Below, piece by piece: positions 4,930 to 16,520 of a stretch of DNA of 26,118 nt. Under the pieces are notes generated by a model. That model saw only the letters and a list, made by a program, of their open reading frames with translations. It was not told the origin of the DNA and did not search any database. The position numbers were made by a program, and so were the translations under genes. Source of the stretch: a virus. Location of the stretch: positions 1 through 26,118 of the IMG/VR virus record IMGVR_UViG_3300035487_000484. One strand, written 5' to 3'. Every line of letters starts with the position of its first letter. The first letter of the stretch is position 1.

Positions 4930-5265
4930 TTATCTGGTGACCTGCGGTGTTATCGTAGCCAACCCTTCGACCAATCTAGACCTATTGTTTGCGGAACTTG
5001 TTATCTCAACGTCATAAACATATCTTCCAGCATCTAATGCTTCGTTAGCCGTTCTGCCAAGAGCAATTGTCACCACGCCAGTAGATCTATCTGCTGCAAA
5101 TGTAATTTCTAATGCTGTAGATGTAGCTGAAGTGTAGTGCTTTCTTATTTGACCAGATCCAGTGAACCCAGTCAAATCAGTTGCAGTTCCATCATCACCA
5201 GTTACGGTTAATGATGTCGAGTAATCAGAACCCTGATCAATTAAGATATTTGCCTTAGCAGCCAT
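4930..5265 (-). CDS. Small beta-rich virion protein, BppU-N-like
   Basis: A 111-residue protein with alternating beta-strand pattern. Motifs are ILIDQGSDYSTSLTVT at the N-terminus, DLTGFTGSGQIRKHYTS in the middle, and AGRYVYDVEITSS and SRLVEGLATITPQVTR at the end. The pattern (ID.G..., DLTG..., GQIRK, YDVE, ...EG...I.PEVTR-like end) is frequent beside fibre genes in marine T4-like phages and resembles the N-terminal domain of the BppU baseplate protein of lactococcal phages. The ATG overlaps the stop of the large fibre gene (TAATG) with an AAGGAAAG ribosome-binding site. It is probably an adaptor linking a fibre to the baseplate; the family resemblance is from memory and the role is inferred. 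Confidence 0.75.
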   Translation of the reverse strand: MAAKANILIDQGSDYSTSLTVTGDDGTATDLTGFTGSGQIRKHYTSATSTALEITFAADRSTGVVTIALGRTANEALDAGRYVYDVEITSSANNRSRLVEGLATITPQVTR

Positions 5266-8200
5266 TATTTCTTTCCTTCTTCAATCATTGCTCTTAGTTC
5301 AGCGTTATCTTCTTTCAACTCTTTGATTGCTTCAACCAACAACGCAACAACATTACCATACGCAACGGTCTTTATCCCGTCAGGCATTGTCTGGACAACT
5401 TCTGGGACTAAAGGCTCAAGTTCTTGTGCTATAAATCCAATCTGACTTTCACCGTCCATATCAATACGGTCGAATGACACACCCCGAAGTTTGCTCACTG
5501 TATCCAAAGCACCTTCAATGTTTTTAACATTTTCCTTTAAAGATATATCAGAATAAGCAGTTATGTTACCGCTCGAAGTGAATGATCCACTTACATAATT
5601 ACCATTACTTGATAAACTGCCCAACCCTACTTCAGCTGGTGTATTGATGAGACAGTTAAAAGTTGTTCCACTCAACTGCATTCCTGTACCAGCACTATAT
5701 GTCGTATTCGTATTCACATAGCTGGTAATATATCCACGACCGTTTGATATCTGAGTATTATTAGTAACGTAGTTAGCATTAGTAGCAATACCAGCCAGTT
5801 TACTATTTAAAGCAGAAGTAAAGTTGATCTGAGTAAGACCACCATTACCAATTGAATATGTAGTGTTAGTATCAGTGTTATCAGAAGCAGGAATGCGGAC
5901 AGTCTTAGTTGTAACACCCGAGACATGCCCTTCTGAGTTGGTAAGAACAGTACTGATGCAAGTAAACGTCTGGTTATATCCAGGATTTGAAGTAGTGGTA
6001 GTATTGGTTCTAGTAGTATTCTCATGAGTAAATGTCATATCATACGGATCGGCATCAGATCCCGGACTAGTATCAGTCCAGTTTATATTAATATAATTGC
6101 CGCCAATAAGTTTGACTTCCTTACCCTGCGCAATACTAATTTCTGTTCCGTCTTCATCTTCCATGACAAACAAATTGCCATTATTCTGTACATAACGACC
6201 ATCAAGATCAGTAGTCAGATCAAGTCCAATGTTTCTTCCAAGAGTCAGGATACCGTTTCCAGTATTGAACCCCAAAGTATTAACATATTCCGAATCAATA
6301 TTAGTTCCGGATAATGAAATGCCGCCCTGCGGATCTAGGTATGCAAAGCCTGACGCGCTGTCATCCCAAAATACAATTCGGTCATCGTTAGGATCACCAA
6401 GAGAGATAGCACCTGTAGCACCCGTAACACCCTTTTGACCTTTAGCACCTGTAACACCTTCGCCCTTCTGCCCTTTAGCACCTGTAACACCTTCGCCCTT
6501 CTGACCTTTAGTACCACCAGAACCAGCTATGCCTTCGCCCTTCTGCCCTTTAGCACCTGTAACACCTTCGCCCTTCTGCCCTTTAGTACCCGCAGAGCCA
6601 TTACTGCCGTTTGCGCCAATCTCGCCTTTCTGACCTTTAGTACCCGCAGCACCTGTTACGCCAAGTTCACCTTTCTGACCTTTAGTACCCGCAGCACCTG
6701 TTACGCCAAGTTCGCCTTTCTGCCCTTTGGAGCCAGTAACACCGACTTCGCCCTTCTGACCTTTCAACCCTTTCTGGCCAACTTCGCCCTTAACACCCTT
6801 TTGACCCTTTTCACCTTTCTGGCCAAGTTCACCTTTCTGACCCTTCACACCTTGCAGGGCGGAATTGGTGATAGTTGATTTTTTCAGCTTGCCTGTATCA
6901 GACGCGTCTAGAATCAACAGGAAATCATCTCCAGTAACTGAACTCGAAAGATCAGTTCTATCGGCAATTGTGCGACCATCATCAGTCAATATTTCGTCGT
7001 AGTTAGTTCCGTCTTCAGTAGTCTCCCAGATATCAGAAGTTTCATTCCACCGAATATCAACATCAGCAAGACTGCCTCTATTTACGGAGACCCCAGCGTT
7101 TTCAGAAGGAGCGACACCAGCACCGAGATCACTGTTTAAAGTGATTTGGTTATCTGCTACATCAAGAGTGGCAGTATTGATAGTTGTGGTAGTTCCTGAA
7201 ACAATCAAGTTACCTGCAATATGAACATTAGCTGTGGCTCTGACGTCATCTACATAAAGGTTGCGCCAAGATTTAGTTGGACTACCAAGATCACGAACAT
7301 TAGCCGCGTTTGGAATAATAGGTGTATCAATGGAACCAGCGACAGAGATTAGATCTCCAGTTGCATTGCCGAGATCAACATCACCACGGAGATAGGTTTG
7401 GTTTTGGACGACAAGGCTATTGAAAGAACCTTCGCCTGTACTAGTGACTCCTCCAGGAATAGAAACATTATCATGGAATACTGTGTTTGCGTATATATCT
7501 AAGGAAGATAATCCACCGTTCGCCCACTGTAGATGACGTTGCGCTTCAGTAAGCGAAGATCTATTTGTGCCCATATTTATGGAATGCGCATTAGCAGTAA
7601 GAGTTCCTGCGACAGATACGATTGTGGAGTTAGCACCCAAATTCAATGTATCAGGCAGACCAACGGTAACTGTTCCATTGGTTCGGCTTACTGCAATTTC
7701 ATTTGCAGTTCCATCTACAGCAAGTACCGCGCCTGTAGTAGCATTCTTAAGAGTAACATCACCGGAAGTGACATCAAAGTCACCGGAATCAAAACTAGCA
7801 ACACCTTTGTTGGCCGAGGTCGCGTCTTCGCCAGCAACAGTGATATTTCCACTAAGAGCGTGCGTTACATTTATACCTTCTCCACCAGCCACAGATAATG
7901 TGTGGGAGTTGGCTACAAATGTGCCCGTATCAGTAGTCACAGATTTTAAAACAGAATCTTCAAGTTGAACTGCGCCTGAAGATACATCAAAGTCTGCAGC
8001 GGCAAAAGAGGCAACACCTTTATTAGTTGTAGTGGCGTCTTCTGCGGATATAGCAATTGTATTAGCAGAAAGAGTTATATCAATTCCTTCCCCTTGATTG
8101 ATATTCAGCGTTGTTCCAAAATCAATATCAATATTTGATCCGCTTCCATCTGTAGCAAGCTCGATATGATCATTTTGTATCATAGAGTTGAGGATAGTGT

Positions 8201-9842
8201 CTGCAGATATAGTGTTGTTTGCATGTAGCTTTGCATTAGCACTGATAACAACTACACCATCATTTGTTAACGCTCCATCGATATCGGCTTCTTCAGCATA
8301 CACTTTACGCCATTCGTTACCAGTAGCACCCAGATCAAATGCGCCATTAGCAACAAGGTGAGACATTATTCTGGCATTTACTGTGAGTATATCAGAATTA
8401 CTATCACCAATAGTGGCATTAGAACCAAACGATGAGGTCGAAGTGATGATCAAACTATCAGCAGCTGCGTCACCAAGATTCACATCACCATTTAAGTTGA
8501 CAGTATTATTGAAAGATGTCACACCATTGAAGATTGAAGTTCCACCAAATGTGGCGGCACCAATCGTCGCCTGATTAGCAAACTTACCTTTAACAGTTAT
8601 TGTATCAGTCTGAGCGTTGCCCAAAGTGATGTCACCATTAAGAGTTGCGTTACCGTCCACGTTCAAAGTACTATTTAAGTCAACCGCGCCATTAGCAGTA
8701 ATAGTAGTGGTGGTCAACCCATTAAGAGTCGAATTACCGTCTACATTCAAAGTAGTATTTAAGTCAACCGCGCCATTAGCAGTAATAGTAGTGGTGGTCA
8801 ATCCATTGAGCGTTGAATTGCCATCAACATTCAAAGTAGTATTTAAGTCAACCGCACCGTTGGCAGTGATGGTGGTGGCAGTCAATCCATTAAGAGTAGT
8901 TGAACCGTCTACATTGAGCGTTGAATTGAAGTCAACAACACCATTAGCAGTAATGGTAGTGGTAGTCAATCCATTAAGAGTAGTCGCGCCATCTACGTTC
9001 AAAGTAGTGTCGAAGTCTACAGCGGCATTCGCATGAAGCTGGCCAAGAGTTGTGTTACCAACAACATCCAAAGAAGAATCAAAATCAACAGCCCCTTCTA
9101 CATGCAAAGTTCCTTCAGCAATTACATTACCATCAGAGTCTATAGACGCAACGACAGTATTGGCATTGTCAGTAATAACTAGTCTGGAATCGCCAGCAGC
9201 GTCCGTCAGCTGTAGGAATAAGTCAGAATCACCAAGGGTGGCGTCGCCAGCCAAGAAGATTTCAACAGCGTCACCATTTCCATTACCACCAGTAAATCTT
9301 AGGTGGGTAGAATTAAGAGCTTCACCAAAGCTGGTATTGGCTCCAGACATAATTAAATGCGCAGAGTTAGAAGATAAATCAGTTACATCTCTGAGTGTGA
9401 AGGACTTGAATGCTGGGGTATTTGTATTTGTGTCAATGCGTAGGAATTGCCCTTGCGAACCACCCGTTACACGCACGCGAGATATATCGCCAAGAGTTAG
9501 TGTTTCCGCACCAGAAGTTGCGAAAGTGACATTAGCGTTGAATGTGGTATTGGCATTTACAGTGAAAGTTTGTGGGTCAATAATAGTATTAGAGCCGACA
9601 GTAATAGTGCCGCCAGTCAAAGTAGAGGTATTACCACCTTTGAGCAAATTTGTTCTGAATTCATTAGCAGAAAATGTACCTTTAATGTGGCCATTTCCTA
9701 CAGCAACTCCACCCCGATTAGCAGATCCTGCCCGAGCCACTGTCACTACGTTATTGCTGATGATCGTAGCAATATAGTTAGTGTTGAGTCTCCATGAGTT
9801 GAAGCTGATATTCAGTTCTGTGTTCGAAACATTAACTGTCAT
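5265..9842 (-). CDS. Long tail fibre: repeat shaft, collagen-like segment, S74 chaperone
   Basis: A 1525-residue fibre. Residues 1-250 are beta-rich. About 270-410 hold 28-residue tandem repeats (ANGAVDLNTTLNVDG, then NSTLNGLTTTTIT). Around 880-950 is a fibre domain (TTTTINTATLDVADNQITLN onward) seen in many marine fibres. About 997-1140 is Gly-X-Y with many GQKGE units. The last 95 residues match the Peptidase_S74 intramolecular chaperone: SDISLKENV supplies the expected Ser1431/Lys1436 pair, followed by GFIAQELEPLVPEVV and a terminal helix. In that family the domain trimerises, guides folding and then cuts itself off just before the Ser, here predicted after Tyr1430. A ribosome-binding site (AGAGAAT) and a late promoter (AATAAATA) precede the ATG. 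It is likely a main host-binding fibre. Confidence 0.92.
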   Translation of the reverse strand: MTVNVSNTELNISFNSWRLNTNYIATIISNNVVTVARAGSANRGGVAVGNGHIKGTFSANEFRTNLLKGGNTSTLTGGTITVGSNTIIDPQTFTVNANTTFNANVTFATSGAETLTLGDISRVRVTGGSQGQFLRIDTNTNTPAFKSFTLRDVTDLSSNSAHLIMSGANTSFGEALNSTHLRFTGGNGNGDAVEIFLAGDATLGDSDLFLQLTDAAGDSRLVITDNANTVVASIDSDGNVIAEGTLHVEGAVDFDSSLDVVGNTTLGQLHANAAVDFDTTLNVDGATTLNGLTTTTITANGVVDFNSTLNVDGSTTLNGLTATTITANGAVDLNTTLNVDGNSTLNGLTTTTITANGAVDLNTTLNVDGNSTLNGLTTTTITANGAVDLNSTLNVDGNATLNGDITLGNAQTDTITVKGKFANQATIGAATFGGTSIFNGVTSFNNTVNLNGDVNLGDAAADSLIITSTSSFGSNATIGDSNSDILTVNARIMSHLVANGAFDLGATGNEWRKVYAEEADIDGALTNDGVVVISANAKLHANNTISADTILNSMIQNDHIELATDGSGSNIDIDFGTTLNINQGEGIDITLSANTIAISAEDATTTNKGVASFAAADFDVSSGAVQLEDSVLKSVTTDTGTFVANSHTLSVAGGEGINVTHALSGNITVAGEDATSANKGVASFDSGDFDVTSGDVTLKNATTGAVLAVDGTANEIAVSRTNGTVTVGLPDTLNLGANSTIVSVAGTLTANAHSINMGTNRSSLTEAQRHLQWANGGLSSLDIYANTVFHDNVSIPGGVTSTGEGSFNSLVVQNQTYLRGDVDLGNATGDLISVAGSIDTPIIPNAANVRDLGSPTKSWRNLYVDDVRATANVHIAGNLIVSGTTTTINTATLDVADNQITLNSDLGAGVAPSENAGVSVNRGSLADVDIRWNETSDIWETTEDGTNYDEILTDDGRTIADRTDLSSSVTGDDFLLILDASDTGKLKKSTITNSALQGVKGQKGELGQKGEKGQKGVKGEVGQKGLKGQKGEVGVTGSKGQKGELGVTGAAGTKGQKGELGVTGAAGTKGQKGEIGANGSNGSAGTKGQKGEGVTGAKGQKGEGIAGSGGTKGQKGEGVTGAKGQKGEGVTGAKGQKGVTGATGAISLGDPNDDRIVFWDDSASGFAYLDPQGGISLSGTNIDSEYVNTLGFNTGNGILTLGRNIGLDLTTDLDGRYVQNNGNLFVMEDEDGTEISIAQGKEVKLIGGNYININWTDTSPGSDADPYDMTFTHENTTRTNTTTTSNPGYNQTFTCISTVLTNSEGHVSGVTTKTVRIPASDNTDTNTTYSIGNGGLTQINFTSALNSKLAGIATNANYVTNNTQISNGRGYITSYVNTNTTYSAGTGMQLSGTTFNCLINTPAEVGLGSLSSNGNYVSGSFTSSGNITAYSDISLKENVKNIEGALDTVSKLRGVSFDRIDMDGESQIGFIAQELEPLVPEVVQTMPDGIKTVAYGNVVALLVEAIKELKEDNAELRAMIEEGKK
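8635..9054. repeat. 84-nt tandem repeats in the long fibre gene
   Basis: Copies start at 8677, 8761, 8845, 8929 and 9013, exactly 84 nt (28 codons) apart, with degenerate flanks on both sides. The copies differ mostly at synonymous positions while the protein is nearly unchanged. The units are in frame and form a regular fibre-shaft motif. Confidence 0.9.
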
Positions 9843-10084: not shown

Positions 10085-12496
10085 TTATACAAGATTCAGA
10101 GGCGATTTGTGTGTAAATATTTGTAAAGCACTTACCTCGGGAGAATACGATGTACCCTTTCCGGCTGGTCGAGTGAACACAACTTTAACTTGATACTCAT
10201 CTACTCCATGATGTATTGATCCGTCTCCAGACCGATAAGCAATTACACCATTATTACTGCTGTTTTCGCGCACTACGTTAGAAAGCCCTAAGAAATTATC
10301 ACCATCACTATTGGCAGACATTCTATGGTGTAGGAAAACCTGATCGCCTCTATTGCCCAGTGTAGACTTCGGCTTTGGTGTTGTCGTGTATATTGCCATC
10401 TGGGTGAAGTTCTTATCTTCAAGACGCTCCGCATCGTTGTCATTTCTGACACGTACATAAAGTTCAATTCCACTTTCATTAGGGAAGTACGCCTGCGTTA
10501 CTATCTTGAATCTTTCTGATGCTACACCAGTGACGCCATTGGTGGCTCGAGTAACATTAGAAATATATCTAGCTTCTGCTCCACCTGATGGGAAAGTCTC
10601 ATTCGCGGTGCTGTCATTAATTCTTTCTCTTGAAGCACTTACCGTCACGTCATCAGAATCAATAATAGGAGAAACTCTTGAGTCAGCAGTAGAGAAAACA
10701 CCCCTCACCAACAAAGACTTATTTGCAGAATTAGACCTACTATATATTCGTTTCTGTGTTTTGTTAAATTCAACTTGCGTACCGCCAGTAATTGGTCTCC
10801 AAGTAGAATCAAGAGTACCAGAAGTTGAAGTCGCCTTGACGAACCAAGTTAAATCAGTTTCTCCAGGAACGCCAAAGTTTGTTGCCAAATCAACAGAGTC
10901 AATTTTAGGATTTATAATAGCATCAACTTTCGCACCAGCTCCAAATTGCTGACCGCGAATATGATCAGTGGCAACATAACCACCAGAAGTATCAGCTAGG
11001 CGAATTCTACCGAAGTCGGTGTTTAAGAATACAATTTTACCTGTAGCAGTGGTGTTGGCAGAAAAAGAACTTGTATTTCCAGCCCATGCGTTTGAAGCAA
11101 AATATACACAATTATTATTTGCGCCTGCTGTGGTTGGGAATTCCCTAAACGCATCAATTTTTACAGTGACCGTTCCTGAACTTGAAGCTACAATTTTCCG
11201 TACAGTTCCGTCCGCATAACCAGCAGCGGTAATCGCCCCAGCAACAGCAGCAGTTCTGGATCGCAAATTATCACCAACAGAAATTGTTGAATTGTTAGCA
11301 AAGGTCAGTATTGATTCGCCTCTGATCGCTTCGTCCATCTGGAAACCTGTAGAAGAGGTAGAACCGCCAGCAGGTGTAATATTGGAAAGATTGAAGAAGT
11401 CAAGAGCCTTGTTTTCAAAAACAAACGAACAGTCTGTTCCGCCAAGATCTGTTTTAGTTGAGAACTTCTTGTATGAAAGTTTAAATTTTAAGTACTCGTT
11501 AGTCAATGGTGCCCAAACTCTACCTGTCGCAGAGCCGTACAACATAGTACATTCCGGAGTGATATATGCGCTAATGTTAGAAACTTTATCGGGTTTGTTT
11601 TTCGTAGCAGACCAAAGTTCAAAATCAGTTCCGTCTTCATTCGGAAGAACGGTCATAGCATACCTTTTATTTTTAGATAAAGTCGTTCCAGCCCTAAACG
11701 AGAATCTAGTAGCAGCCGAACCATTAGAAGACACGTTAATACTGTTTCGGTATACAGGAGGACTTTGTTCTACTAGGACTGTGGTAGGTCTTCCTCTAGA
11801 ATCAGTTTCCCTAATTTGAACTATCACATAAGCAGTTGACGCTACTGGCTTTTTAGCAAAGAACAAATCAACATATTCTAAATGCGGATTATCAATGGTT
11901 GATACAAAGGTTTGCGACAAGAAATCTGGAATCTCTTCAGTTACAGTACTGTTTGTAACACTCGTCATCGATGAGTCGGCAGAAATTTCAGTAAGAGAAA
12001 TTTGACTGCTTTGGTGCGGAGGAGCATTAGTGTACCGCATTGTGCCAATATTTGATGGAGCGTAGTAATACTGCCCGCACCGAGTTGAAGCACCTGTCTT
12101 ACCAGAACTAATACCGCCACCATAAGGCGGTTTAACGTCGCTGACTTCTAGAAGGTGCTTATACCCTCTAAACCGCATAGTATTGTCATTTGGAATTTTG
12201 AAAAAGTATATCAAGACACCGCTGGCGTTTGTTATCATTGGCGACCCATAATGCGCCTGATCTGCAGGAGAACAATATGGCGAAACGTCTCTTCCGTCAA
12301 ACCGTGGCCAAACACGAGTGGAAGGCTTCAAACCACTACAAGTTACTTTTTGAGCAACGTGGGCTTTAATAGTGTAAGCATTCGTGCCATTAATATATGC
12401 CGAAATGTCAGAGTACTCGGCCAAGCCAGTATAATCAAGACCTGCCTTTTTATACTCATTTAACAATGCCGCTGATGTGGAAGATGAGACTGTCAT
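10085..12496 (-). CDS. Large baseplate or fibre-base structural protein (GLKP / SQTF module)
   Basis: An 803-residue protein. Residues 55-75 (GLKPSTRVWPRFDGRDVSPY) and 98-120 (FFKIPNDNTMRFRGYKHLLE) match a pattern I recall from very large structural proteins of marine T4-like phages (GLKPxTRVYxFFDxxDV ... FxIPN...RFRTG). About 185-340 is a second recurring module: an SQTF motif (DPLAQTF in relatives), then YVDLFFAKKPVASTAYVIVQ, IRE..GRPT and a beta-rich segment. The middle has an ANN..ISVGD motif also found in gp7. The C-terminal 150 residues contain VYVR-like strands and FLHHRMSANSDGDNF. It stands where T4 has genes 9-11, so a baseplate periphery or fibre-attachment role is likely but inferred. 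Late promoter and AGGAAA ribosome-binding site precede the ATG. Confidence 0.75.
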   Translation of the reverse strand: MTVSSSTSAALLNEYKKAGLDYTGLAEYSDISAYINGTNAYTIKAHVAQKVTCSGLKPSTRVWPRFDGRDVSPYCSPADQAHYGSPMITNASGVLIYFFKIPNDNTMRFRGYKHLLEVSDVKPPYGGGISSGKTGASTRCGQYYYAPSNIGTMRYTNAPPHQSSQISLTEISADSSMTSVTNSTVTEEIPDFLSQTFVSTIDNPHLEYVDLFFAKKPVASTAYVIVQIRETDSRGRPTTVLVEQSPPVYRNSINVSSNGSAATRFSFRAGTTLSKNKRYAMTVLPNEDGTDFELWSATKNKPDKVSNISAYITPECTMLYGSATGRVWAPLTNEYLKFKLSYKKFSTKTDLGGTDCSFVFENKALDFFNLSNITPAGGSTSSTGFQMDEAIRGESILTFANNSTISVGDNLRSRTAAVAGAITAAGYADGTVRKIVASSSGTVTVKIDAFREFPTTAGANNNCVYFASNAWAGNTSSFSANTTATGKIVFLNTDFGRIRLADTSGGYVATDHIRGQQFGAGAKVDAIINPKIDSVDLATNFGVPGETDLTWFVKATSTSGTLDSTWRPITGGTQVEFNKTQKRIYSRSNSANKSLLVRGVFSTADSRVSPIIDSDDVTVSASRERINDSTANETFPSGGAEARYISNVTRATNGVTGVASERFKIVTQAYFPNESGIELYVRVRNDNDAERLEDKNFTQMAIYTTTPKPKSTLGNRGDQVFLHHRMSANSDGDNFLGLSNVVRENSSNNGVIAYRSGDGSIHHGVDEYQVKVVFTRPAGKGTSYSPEVSALQIFTHKSPLNLV

Positions 12497-12530: not shown

Positions 12531-15500
12531 TTATTTATTATGAACAACAAAGTTATTAACCACAAAGGTGTCGTCGCCATCAACATCAAGGTTGTATACA
12601 GCAACAAATTCTTCTCTACGATTAATACTACGCAACTTATCTTCATGAGTCTCTAATTGCTCGCTGTACTTGACAAGTTTATTACCAGCAGCCAACTCAG
12701 AGACATCCATTTCCGGATGTATTTCTAGAGTTGCTTCCACATTAAACGACTTCCAGCCAGCAGAGGTGAGAACTGGATGTGATTCAGTCAATTCTAACTG
12801 TTCGTTAATAGTATAAATAACTCTATCTTCAGCTTCGAATTGATGTGTGTCAACCACTTCATTAATTTCACCATTATAACCATAAACCATTTCACCAATC
12901 TGAACATTCTCGATAGACTTGGTAGTTCCATCATACATCAACACCTGAGTGCCAGCAACGAAACAACCACCGTGACGACCCGTTGGCCGAGTCTGGTATG
13001 GAACCCTAATGGCACCAATTCCAGGATTGACTATGGTGTAATAGGAGTTTGGGTCTGGTGCTTGGTATGGCAATGGGACAATTCTAGCTGGGGGAGCAGC
13101 TGCTGGCACCGCTAACTGTGCAATACCGCAAAGAGAGTGCGCTAATGTCATAGTTCCGTTGTACAATTTCGAAGGAGTTGTTTTGGAAACTGTTACCGAA
13201 ATTCTACTAGTCGCGAAAGGCTGTGACACTAATGTAATCCCACCAGTGACAACAGCAGTAATCTTATTATCAGTTACAGTAGTGTTCACGCTACCTGCTT
13301 GAAGAGACAATTCTATATCTTCTAGAGTAGGTATAGACCTCAACGGATCTCTGGAGAAACTCAAATCAGAACTACGCAAAGTGTTGTACGAGCTTTTCGA
13401 TCCGTTCGGGTCAGTATTAATAGAATCCTTTGGTGGTTCAGGTGCGCCATCAGGATCATCAGAACGAAGGACGCTCATTCTCAAGGCAGCAATCTCAGAA
13501 GTATTCAACTGGATGCTCCTTTCATGATATTCAACTTTATCCTCTAATCCTCTCAAATCTTCCATCGTAAATCTGCGATTGTTAGATTGCAGTAAATCAA
13601 CTTCAACATCAGGACGCATATAGTGCATAGCAGCTACTGGCGAAAGTGATGGGTATGGGGGGATGTAGATTATGGCCAAGTTCATTTCATCAGGGGCACT
13701 AGCTGGAACAGACGGAGACGATTCCGGTGCGCCAGTTACGATACTGACTTGTCCGCTAGATGACAAACTTACTGAGTCATATCTCGGCAAATATGACTGA
13801 ACATCACATTGGAAATTCTGGTCAGGTGTAGGGAAATACACACCATCACTATCAATATCAAACACAGTACCTGCCGCTGGGTTGGTAGGCGCGACCGCAG
13901 CTGTGGCTGTTGCGTGTGGTGTAACAGTAGAAGCTCGGATTGGTCTAAAATCAACACTATCTCGAAGATCCATCATATTACCAGCAGCAGTTGCGTATGT
14001 CGGGATTTCTGCTGTGGTTATTGTAGTTGCGGCTGCAGGATTGGCATCATCAATCGGATATGAATCAACACTCATATAACCGATGCCAGCAGAGCGGTCT
14101 CTACCAAAGTAATTGAATTTGACAAGGAGACCTATATTAGTCGTGTCCAACGTACTGGTGGGTCGTTTAACGAGCCTTGCAGTATCATATAGGGAATCGC
14201 GTTGGCCATCATCTATATAAAAATCCGTTGTCACGTCTTCGCCAGTAGCAGCTGTTACAGAAGTATTTGCGCCAGAATGAACCGATACTAACTCAAAAGC
14301 GTCAGAAACACCTAGTGCCCATGGACCAGCATTACTGTCGGTATGACTACCAGTGTCAATGTGAATATTCTTATTCTTGTTAACAGTCTTATTTGCTTGG
14401 CGAGACGAGCTTCTTAAGAGATCGAAGTATACCGATGCAGCAAAGGTAGAAGACAAATTAGCACATTGTAGATCAATAGCGTGCGAAGAACCACTTGAAG
14501 TAATTGTTCCGTTTGACTGAGTATTGAAAATGTGTCCGCTTGGGAATACTTTAGAATGCGCGTTGGCGGCATAACTTTGACTTGTCGAAACTGTCATCGA
14601 TGTGTCACTAGCAATATTTGTGATTCTTTGCTTCGGATGTGCTGCGAGCTGTATGAAATCACCAACTACATATTGTGTGGTGAAGGTTGTTCCAGCTGTG
14701 CCAGTGACTGTTGCGCCAGTTTGTTGAGCCTTACCAGTCATTGGAGAAGTAGTAACTTCACTCTTGGCTACAATTATGATGTTTCTCTCATCAACAGAAG
14801 ATAACGGGGAACCAGTATCATTGTTTGTTTCAGTGCCGCCTGTGTGAGCAGTATTGGCCGAAACCGTTGCCGTGCCACTAGTGGTAAAGGATACAGTCTT
14901 CTCAGTTCGCATTACATATTGTGTTTGTGTACTGTCTGTAGCGTCAGCAAGTTTACGTGTACCAGTAGTTGTAATAGGGAACACTAAAGTATTGAGGTTG
15001 GAATCTTGTAACTTCGCAACACCACTAGTCTCTAAAACAATATCAGCATATGAATCTGGTCCAGAGACATTATTGACATATAACGAACGAGCTTCAGCGA
15101 AACTTTTATCAGCATTCAATTTCATGTCAAAAAGGTATATTCTGAATTTACCAGTCGTAGTTCCGGAAACACCTTCATGATGCTGAAAGCCGCGAACCTT
15201 AGCAGTACCAATTTTAGTACCAGTTACTGAACCAAGGTTGGCGTAGTTGCCAGTAATCATATCTTGTGCAGAAGAGTATATGTCAACTGAGCGAAGTCCT
15301 TGGAAATCCCAAGTACCTGTAACTTCATTACATATAGCAAAGTTGCCAAAGTTCTGACCGATAATGACATCACTTGTAACTTCATAGGTGGTGGCTTTAG
15401 CAATATTGGCTCGGTATAGATCTGTAAGTTCTGTTCTGTAACCTTGAACATAACCAATGGAAGGCTCTACTTCAACAACCAATTTATTAAGGTCGCCGCC

Positions 15501-16520
15501 CTCAGTGACGGAATATACCCCACCGTTAACAGCAGTTTGCAGATGCTCTTCAACATTAACCTTGAATGGGGATAATGCATAATCACCAGACTCTTCCCTA
15601 GTCCTCAGGGCTAGTTCTTCTTGGAGTTCGCCATATTGGGTATCGGTATAATTTCTAATCACACGACCGCTTTGAATATCGGCCAATGGCATAAAGCCAA
15701 CTGTATTAGCATCAGTAAGAGAACGAGTTCTAATTACTGGCAACAGTTTAAGTCTTGATGCTCCTGGTGCTGAGAAGTTGGTTGCTCCTGAAGCGTTATC
15801 TAATAGTGACGAATCTTGATTAGAGTCGACTAATGATTCAGTAGTCTCAAATCCAACACGGACATCAGGAGTTAATGTATACTTACTAACAACACCAGAT
15901 TGATCAGGAGATCTAACGAAATGCCCTTTGTGGTAAACTGTACCACCAGTTACTGCAGCACCGATACCAACTCCTGTAGCGGAATATGCATTTGCAGCAA
16001 CAGTTCCTATAGTATTAGCGGCAACCAAAAATGTAGAAGACGAAGAGTTTCTAAATATTAGTGTTTCGCCATCCTTAAATGACTTTGTTGCGTTGTTCGC
16101 GCCAGAGTTTGTATACGAAACAAATACACTCAAGTAGTTAGGAGCGTTACCTTCAGAACCTTCTTCCGCAGCCAATAACTTTGCTGTGAGACCAGTCGCT
16201 GCACCAGTAACAGTACTATTAGCGATAACTCCAGAAGAAAAGAAGTCATTGAGCAACAGCACTCTGTTGTTCGCATCTTTATCTCTCAGTTTGACATACT
16301 GCCATTGCTGAAGTTCAAGGTCGCAACCGTTCAAAACTGTTCCGTTTGTCAAAACTTCGGAACCAAGACGTTCAACTTGATTCTGCAAGATTGATTGGAG
16401 CTGCGTCAGTTCTCTAGCCTGAACAGCATATCCTGGTCTGAAAAGTACTCGATGAAAGTTCTTCGTTTCGTTGAAGTCGTCAAAGAAAGGACTTTGATTG
16501 AGGTTTGTCTCGATTGTCAT
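12531..16520 (-). CDS. DUF4815-like baseplate structural protein with C-terminal Hint domain
   Basis: A 1329-residue protein. The N-terminus (SPFFDDFNETKNFHRVLFRP, GYAVQARELTQLQSILQNQ) is the signature of the DUF4815-type family of phage tail proteins. Residues about 595-663 hold a small module (VTGTAGTTFTTQYVVGDFI) also present in gp7. Around 1040-1130 are LEDKVEYHERSI and the SRDPLRSIPTLEDIELS segment. Residues 1186-1329 form a Hint (intein/Hedgehog) domain: CFVAGTQVLMYDG at its start, TESH with the T..H pair (1245/1248), and a VYNLDVDGDDTFVV to VVHN end, followed by one Lys and the stop. It lies after gp8, in the T4 gene 9/10 position, so it is probably part of the outer baseplate. Ribosome-binding site is AAAGGTAA. 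Confidence 0.88.
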   Translation of the reverse strand: MTIETNLNQSPFFDDFNETKNFHRVLFRPGYAVQARELTQLQSILQNQVERLGSEVLTNGTVLNGCDLELQQWQYVKLRDKDANNRVLLLNDFFSSGVIANSTVTGAATGLTAKLLAAEEGSEGNAPNYLSVFVSYTNSGANNATKSFKDGETLIFRNSSSSTFLVAANTIGTVAANAYSATGVGIGAAVTGGTVYHKGHFVRSPDQSGVVSKYTLTPDVRVGFETTESLVDSNQDSSLLDNASGATNFSAPGASRLKLLPVIRTRSLTDANTVGFMPLADIQSGRVIRNYTDTQYGELQEELALRTREESGDYALSPFKVNVEEHLQTAVNGGVYSVTEGGDLNKLVVEVEPSIGYVQGYRTELTDLYRANIAKATTYEVTSDVIIGQNFGNFAICNEVTGTWDFQGLRSVDIYSSAQDMITGNYANLGSVTGTKIGTAKVRGFQHHEGVSGTTTGKFRIYLFDMKLNADKSFAEARSLYVNNVSGPDSYADIVLETSGVAKLQDSNLNTLVFPITTTGTRKLADATDSTQTQYVMRTEKTVSFTTSGTATVSANTAHTGGTETNNDTGSPLSSVDERNIIIVAKSEVTTSPMTGKAQQTGATVTGTAGTTFTTQYVVGDFIQLAAHPKQRITNIASDTSMTVSTSQSYAANAHSKVFPSGHIFNTQSNGTITSSGSSHAIDLQCANLSSTFAASVYFDLLRSSSRQANKTVNKNKNIHIDTGSHTDSNAGPWALGVSDAFELVSVHSGANTSVTAATGEDVTTDFYIDDGQRDSLYDTARLVKRPTSTLDTTNIGLLVKFNYFGRDRSAGIGYMSVDSYPIDDANPAAATTITTAEIPTYATAAGNMMDLRDSVDFRPIRASTVTPHATATAAVAPTNPAAGTVFDIDSDGVYFPTPDQNFQCDVQSYLPRYDSVSLSSSGQVSIVTGAPESSPSVPASAPDEMNLAIIYIPPYPSLSPVAAMHYMRPDVEVDLLQSNNRRFTMEDLRGLEDKVEYHERSIQLNTSEIAALRMSVLRSDDPDGAPEPPKDSINTDPNGSKSSYNTLRSSDLSFSRDPLRSIPTLEDIELSLQAGSVNTTVTDNKITAVVTGGITLVSQPFATSRISVTVSKTTPSKLYNGTMTLAHSLCGIAQLAVPAAAPPARIVPLPYQAPDPNSYYTIVNPGIGAIRVPYQTRPTGRHGGCFVAGTQVLMYDGTTKSIENVQIGEMVYGYNGEINEVVDTHQFEAEDRVIYTINEQLELTESHPVLTSAGWKSFNVEATLEIHPEMDVSELAAGNKLVKYSEQLETHEDKLRSINRREEFVAVYNLDVDGDDTFVVNNFVVHNK
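12532..12539 (-). promoter_or_regulatory. T4-type late promoter, AATAAATA, overlapping the Hint gene stop
   Basis: Minus-strand AATAAATA covers the last Asn and Lys codons and the stop (AAT AAA TAA) of the upstream gene. It lies 35 bases before the 803-residue ATG. One mismatch to TATAAATA, at the first base. Confidence 0.6.
12534..12965 (-). other. Hint (intein-like) domain at the protein C-terminus
   Basis: The domain covers 144 codons, from Cys1186 to Lys1329. The key catalytic positions of Hint domains are intact: first-residue Cys, Thr..His of block B, and terminal His-Asn. There is no homing-endonuclease domain. The residue after His-Asn is Lys and then the stop, so there is no C-extein and no Cys/Ser/Thr nucleophile. 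Classic cis-splicing is therefore not possible. N-terminal thioester cleavage or Asn cyclisation remain chemically possible, as in bacterial intein-like domains. Confidence 0.88.

Follow-up and report, generated by a model that had tools for sequence, protein, structure and literature searches.

A putative self-trimming Hint domain at the fission point of the phage baseplate protein VrlC

Bacterial-intein-like (BIL) domains of the A type, for which 2lwy is a structure, were reportedly described by Amitai in 2003 and Dassa in 2004. A histidine of block F contributes to intein-type chemistry. The Asp at block F position 4 assists the nucleophile at the +1 position (PMC7765530), and BIL domains lacking such a nucleophile predominantly give cleavage products (PMC7664689). 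The BIL2 domain of Tetrahymena is reported to form K(epsilon-NH2)-C-terminus isopeptide bonds and to attach ubl4 to other proteins (PMC8616854). VrlC is a core baseplate protein of pelagi- and cyanomyophages (PMC7029224). Here we describe a Hint domain at the end of the first of two VrlC genes in a marine phage; the window, as we call the whole stretch of DNA analysed, comprises the 26,118 nt of IMG/VR record IMGVR_UViG_3300035487_000484.

The gene in question (12531..16520, minus strand like all features of the window given here) encodes 1329 aa, matches DUF4815 (PF16075) with 127 bits and phrog_358 with 626 bits, and covers positions 1-1084 of the 2056 positions of that PHROG family. An earlier note on this DNA had claimed that the DUF4815-like protein ends in a complete Hint domain without endonuclease, followed only by a Lys and the stop, and each part of this claim was borne out. 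The Hint domain (12534..12965, comprising residues 1186-1328 and the terminal Lys1329) is recognised by PF05203 (Hom_end_hint) over residues 1186-1317 with 40.7 bits against a Pfam cut-off of 32.1 used without tuning (E 3.4e-10), the Vint and Hint models of Pfam being weaker on this protein. No endonuclease insert is present between residues 1186 and 1328, and the domain is the only Hint in the entire window. Its AlphaFold2 model, built from a 14-row alignment, is a full Hint fold with a mean pLDDT of 96, and the best match in the PDB is BIL2 (6y75, Z 20.6), ahead of the gp41-1 intein (18.4), the Ssp DnaB intein (18.0), Hedgehog (1at0, 17.6) and the BIL domain 2lwy (17.2); a sequence profile search also places BIL2 at the top (E 1.9e-14). 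The longer segment of residues 960-1329, predicted with the mixed alignment A5, reached a pLDDT of 38, too low to be informative.

All residues named in the note are found exactly. Cys1186 (12963..12965), the first residue of the domain and the site of the expected N to S acyl shift, is invariant in 45/45 representative domains tabulated. Block B reads Thr1245-Glu-Ser-His1248 (12777..12788), its His being invariant in all classes and its Thr in 9/9 representatives of the clade of C-terminal Hints described below, and the protein ends with His1327-Asn1328-Lys1329 (12534..12542) and the stop TAA at 12531-12533. In block F, position 4 is taken by Asn1310 (12591..12593), as in 7/9 terminal-clade and 23/23 VrlC Hints, where 8/13 nucleophile-type (splicing) inteins have Asp. 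The block F histidine is replaced by Asp1317 (12570..12572); Asp stands here in 9/9 terminal-clade Hints, and the histidine itself is present in 7/13 splicing inteins and 12/23 VrlC Hints. Another gene of the window (5265-9842) encodes a tail fibre of 1525 aa that has collagen repeats and, at its C-terminus, an endosialidase-type chaperone (S74), likewise a terminal domain of a self-cleaving kind.

N-part homology and gene order identify the protein as VrlC: upstream lie T4-type baseplate genes (gp5-, gp25-, gp6-, gp7- and gp8-like), and the gene follows gp6, gp7 and gp8, with neighbours annotated as baseplate wedge subunits. The next gene (10085..12496, 803 aa) has its own start, matches phrog_358 at positions 1314-1577 and can be aligned with the C-part of the L021 protein, a fused chain of 2080 aa (the L numbers denote the loci compared). 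Since PHROG places both genes in phrog_358, and since pelagiphage HTVC008M encodes VrlC in a single CDS of 6006 nt (a chain of about 2000 aa is found there and in others), the window encodes one protein in two genes, each for one half, with the Hint placed at the VrlC fission point. To regard the protein as a baseplate component with a mere Hint ornament is thus an incomplete view. The claim that there is no C-extein is literally right, as the ORF stops and a separate ATG follows after a gap of 34 nt in a different frame (L010 has TAA TAA at the corresponding position), but it overlooks that the next gene encodes what remains of this protein. That the two genes are joined by stop-codon read-through or by a frameshift is ruled out by the differing frames and by additional stops. 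A split intein is ruled out as well, because the C-part carries no intein fragment and its N-terminus aligns with those of Hint-less relatives.

Among 35 viral loci compared as close relatives, VrlC occurs in three arrangements: fused without Hint (L020-L023 and L025), as two genes without Hint (L008, L014, L016, L019, L026, L031, L033 and L034), where the first gene usually ends in a variable Gly- and aromatic-rich tail, and as two genes with Hint (the window, L003, L004-L006 and L010-L012). In the tree the Hint bearers together with L008 form one clade, with an unresolved fork, inside the split clade. Because of this nesting, the split probably came first, and the Hint would then have been lost in L008 or gained more than once. 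The VrlC N-half of L003, a contig nearly identical to the window, shows a break in frame around residue 176 (about 8500-8570), which may be a sequencing error.

The Hint is under strong purifying selection while the linker that precedes it drifts. For the Hint, dN/dS is 0.05 between the window and L003, 0.10 between L004 and L005 and 0.18 between the window and L004. For the 55 codons of linker adjoining it (12966..13130, ending in GRHGG), the value is about 1.0 in close pairs and 0.39 between the window and L004, where synonymous sites are near saturation. Near-identical contigs show 11 and 30 differences per 150 nt in this linker, compared with about 0-11 elsewhere. Between lineages it cannot be aligned, and the N-extein ends differ as well (GRHGG in the window, GGSG in L004 and GGDE in L044).

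Hints at VrlC junctions recur in many phages. Every Hint-bearing VrlC gene comes from metagenomic viral contigs; none was found among cultured phages, where Hint queries match helicases, terminases and other proteins. The Hint may stand at the gene end (the window, L106) or near it in tandem (L077), the C-part lying on the next gene in both L077 and L106. In L103, whose middle part matches phrog_358 at 1205-1397, Hints follow the VrlC part within a middle gene. In other VrlC proteins Hints lie within one ORF in runs of 1-4, just upstream of the C-part motif DPLxQTF. When HN-x-DPLxQTF was scanned for with any residue allowed as x, 17 contigs were obtained. In 15 of these VrlC contains Hint sequence, one to four domains in a row, each with Lys or Arg as x; the exceptions are L193 (Tyr), which is without Hint, and L199, where a separate frame carries the Hints. 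Two to six Hints in tandem, with the +1 Lys of one abutting Cys1 of the next, occur in phage proteins of L112, L187, L194, L197, L199, L202 and L107, the last not being VrlC by the profile used. Cysteine pairs immediately ahead of Cys1 (CC followed by CF) are seen in VrlC-internal Hints of L196, L198, L194 and L199.

Hint ends were scanned with an HNK pattern and then with the +1 residue left free. In the free scan, restricted to viral loci, +1 is Cys in 28, Ser in 7 and Thr in 5 cases, and a separate group has Lys (17), Ala (2) or Arg (1); as the seeds were of the Lys type, these counts describe the neighbourhood of the window's Hint and not all Hints. Among representative VrlC Hints that end in HN (85% clustering) the residue after His-Asn is Lys in 23/26 and Arg in 3/26, never Cys, Ser or Thr as in splicing inteins; by sequence the terminal Lys is a conserved feature of the class. 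A first scan of bacterial genomes with alignment A1 gave nothing; a second, with a pattern requiring Lys, gave 11 loci, which are outside the viral +1 counts but inside the non-VrlC classes of the clustered residue table. Among the bacterial proteins retrieved with this Lys-requiring pattern are Gly-rich ones of Lentisphaerota, Planctomycetota and Elusimicrobiota (L175, L177, L179, L181, L178 and L182), in which Lys follows a single Hint or Hints in tandem.

A phylogenetic tree of 75 Hints, whose deep forks are weak because only 148 columns serve 75 rows, places the window's domain in a clade (98/90) with L101, L075/L082, L044, L051, L094 and the long-branched L120. The hosts of these Hints are a phrog_2048 tail protein upstream of a J-like gene (L101), a phrog_32 tail assembly protein upstream of J (L075/L082) and a giant virion protein (L044), and a longer form of L051, L105, carries a Baseplate_wedge domain. 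Judged by these sequences, the clade is common to unrelated tail-tip and baseplate proteins. Its members end with HNK and stop except L120 (HN-Ala-Lys), part of the clade having been retrieved with Lys-requiring patterns and the window, L004, L010 and L044 otherwise, and C1, T60, H63, H142 and N143 are invariant in 9/9 representatives. A derivation of the window's Hint from VrlC-internal Hints is not favoured by its place in a different clade, the weakness of the deep forks applying here too. L044 repeats the situation of the window, with a giant protein split and a terminal Hint: the Hint (L044:6001-6426) ends the first gene with HNK and stop in a second giant virion protein (phrog_10938, also in L184), unrelated to VrlC, and in Xanthomonas phage XacN1 a single CDS (203370-213311) is matched by this gene as well as by the next, which also holds for RAS14. 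Three neighbouring structural genes of L044 (6432-9700) have Pro/Thr-rich repeats at or near their C-termini; a similar beta-rich domain occurs in the first two and the Hint in the first only.

We consider it fairly probable that the Hint of the window is an active A-type BIL domain that sheds itself from the VrlC N-half by N-cleavage, and on the sequence it probably acts on parts of the phage tail, trimming or joining them with no enzyme involved. Cys1186 would take over the peptide bond after Gly1185 by an N to S acyl shift aided by Thr1245 and His1248, and the thioester would then be resolved by water or another nucleophile. The mature N-half would end near GRHGG with the 143-residue Hint shed, and the next gene would supply the C-part; as there is no C-extein, nothing would be spliced. 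In other phages, one or several Hints within the unsplit ORF may cut (or splice) there, and in the lineage of the window the gene itself is split, which would leave a self-trimming C-terminal module. What the analysis shows is the sequence with its conserved catalytic residues, the predicted fold, the selection on the domain, its fission context and its recurrence; cleavage, and whatever resolves the thioester, are inferred. The invariant residues of the thioester step and the strong purifying selection fit an active N-cleaving domain. In Hints of this kind the nucleophile at +1 is absent and so, in most of them, is the Asp of block F, and this joint loss fits thioester formation without splicing and thus favours N-cleavage. 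The natural series of VrlC, fused in HTVC008M, L021 and L022, split without Hint in L008, L014 and L016 and with a Hint at the junction elsewhere, supports the same view, and so does the unrelated giant protein of L044, divided with a terminal Hint there but a single CDS in XacN1 and RAS14. Against self-trimming, HN and the +1 Lys are kept though simple N-cleavage needs neither, and the change of the block F histidine to Asp in the terminal clade could weaken parts of the chemistry. Moreover, a self-removing domain should be easily lost, as in L008, which nests with Hint bearers, yet it persists, so some further benefit is left unexplained.

A rival reading is conjugation, with the thioester of Cys1186 passed to an amine to create an isopeptide bond. 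This amine would belong either to the terminal Lys1329 (leaving the N-half with a Lys) or to a lysine on another protein nearby, in the virion or at the cell surface. That other molecules are attached to the baseplate was suggested in the earlier note; by analogy with BIL2, which sets a precedent for isopeptide formation on lysine, the idea is worth considering, with Lys1329 as the nearest amine. BIL2 is also the nearest PDB fold, HN is followed by Lys in every terminal-clade representative except one and by Lys or Arg in every VrlC Hint, and the N-extein end GRHGG recalls the RGG motif noted for BIL2. However, Arg replaces Lys in several VrlC Hints, where a side-chain amine is therefore not required, the GG end is not universal, as the ends in L004 and L044 show, and a substrate-recognition region is absent, and we regard conjugation in the window as unlikely. 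Slightly less likely still is its extension to the whole class of phage Hints with Lys or Arg at +1, which would move among tail-tip proteins of unrelated kinds, with stacks of up to four in VrlC. Such Hints would be built-in acyl-transfer units: large baseplate proteins would be cut at defined sites and their activated ends handed to lysines, so that isopeptide bonds cross-link or decorate the tail with no other enzyme taking part.

We give little credence to a decaying relic, an ancestral intein or BIL domain that lost its C-extein at the gene break and was kept passively. The missing C-extein, the sporadic distribution with absence from L008 of the same clade and the lost block F His would agree with it, but the low dN/dS of the Hint, the retention of all core catalytic residues at 54-67% identity and its place in the Hint tree, away from the VrlC-internal Hints and among those at the C-termini of other tail proteins, speak against it. 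Equally doubtful is an uncleaved Hint fold that stays on the virion as a stable structural domain for ligand binding or assembly: it would account for the conserved HN and Lys, unnecessary for N-cleavage, and for the presence of the clade on tail-tip and baseplate proteins, but leaves the invariance of Cys1 and of the block B Thr and His without a reason. Rejoining in trans, in which the N-terminus of the separate C-part attacks the thioester of the N-half, is very improbable. The two genes do make up one protein between them, and ligation by BIL domains in the absence of nucleophilic side chains is reported, going by the title of reference 16 in PMC7664689, but the C-part has no intein piece, starts like that of Hint-less relatives, which manage with two unlinked chains, and has no conserved Cys, Ser or Thr after Met (MTVSS in the window, MPASA in L010).

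The finding points to self-processing of the phage adsorption apparatus: one clade of C-terminal Hints, nearly all ending in His-Asn-Lys-stop, recurs among tail-tip and baseplate proteins that are unrelated to one another, and Hints of a related group lie, single or in tandem, at one VrlC junction. If these domains are active, the baseplate of contractile tails would be matured or conjugated post-translationally by intein-family chemistry. We found no earlier description of baseplate maturation or conjugation by intein chemistry in our searches of the open literature, and we know of none for contractile tails. The natural series of fused, split, Hint-internal and Hint-terminal forms also serves the study of how giant virion proteins are divided.

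Compared with known systems, the domain matches the A-type BIL domains in its Hint fold, Cys1 with the TxxH of block B, the terminal His-Asn, the lack of Cys, Ser or Thr at +1 and the placement in a variable region, and it shares with them the Asn at block F position 4; the presence of the HN motif separates it from the B type, which lacks the C-terminal intein motif. It differs from A-type BIL domains in being C-terminal on the N-half of a phage baseplate protein, at a protein fission point, and the phage Hints further differ by the invariant Lys (Arg in some VrlC-internal ones) after HN and by tandem runs of up to four in relatives. The BIL2 domain of Tetrahymena BUBL1 (6y75, 6tmm) is the closest in solved fold, with 26% identity, as well as in profile, and is reported to transfer its N-extein to lysine (PMC8616854), but it is eukaryotic and lies between ubiquitin-like domains, none of which was recognised in the protein of the window. 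Mini-inteins (gp41-1, Ssp DnaB and Mtu RecA) share the fold (Z about 18) and the same set of N-terminal chemistry; in contrast to these, the window's Hint has Lys and a stop at +1 instead of the C-extein with initial Cys, Ser or Thr of class 1 inteins, and both the Asp and the His of block F are replaced. The Hedgehog autoprocessing domain is likewise a C-terminal Hint that detaches an N-terminal domain, but the window's Hint keeps the terminal His-Asn and is followed by just Lys and stop where the Hog type has its sterol-recognition region. As in fractured genes with split inteins, a gene is broken at an intein-family domain, but here the first gene holds the whole Hint and the second has no intein piece.
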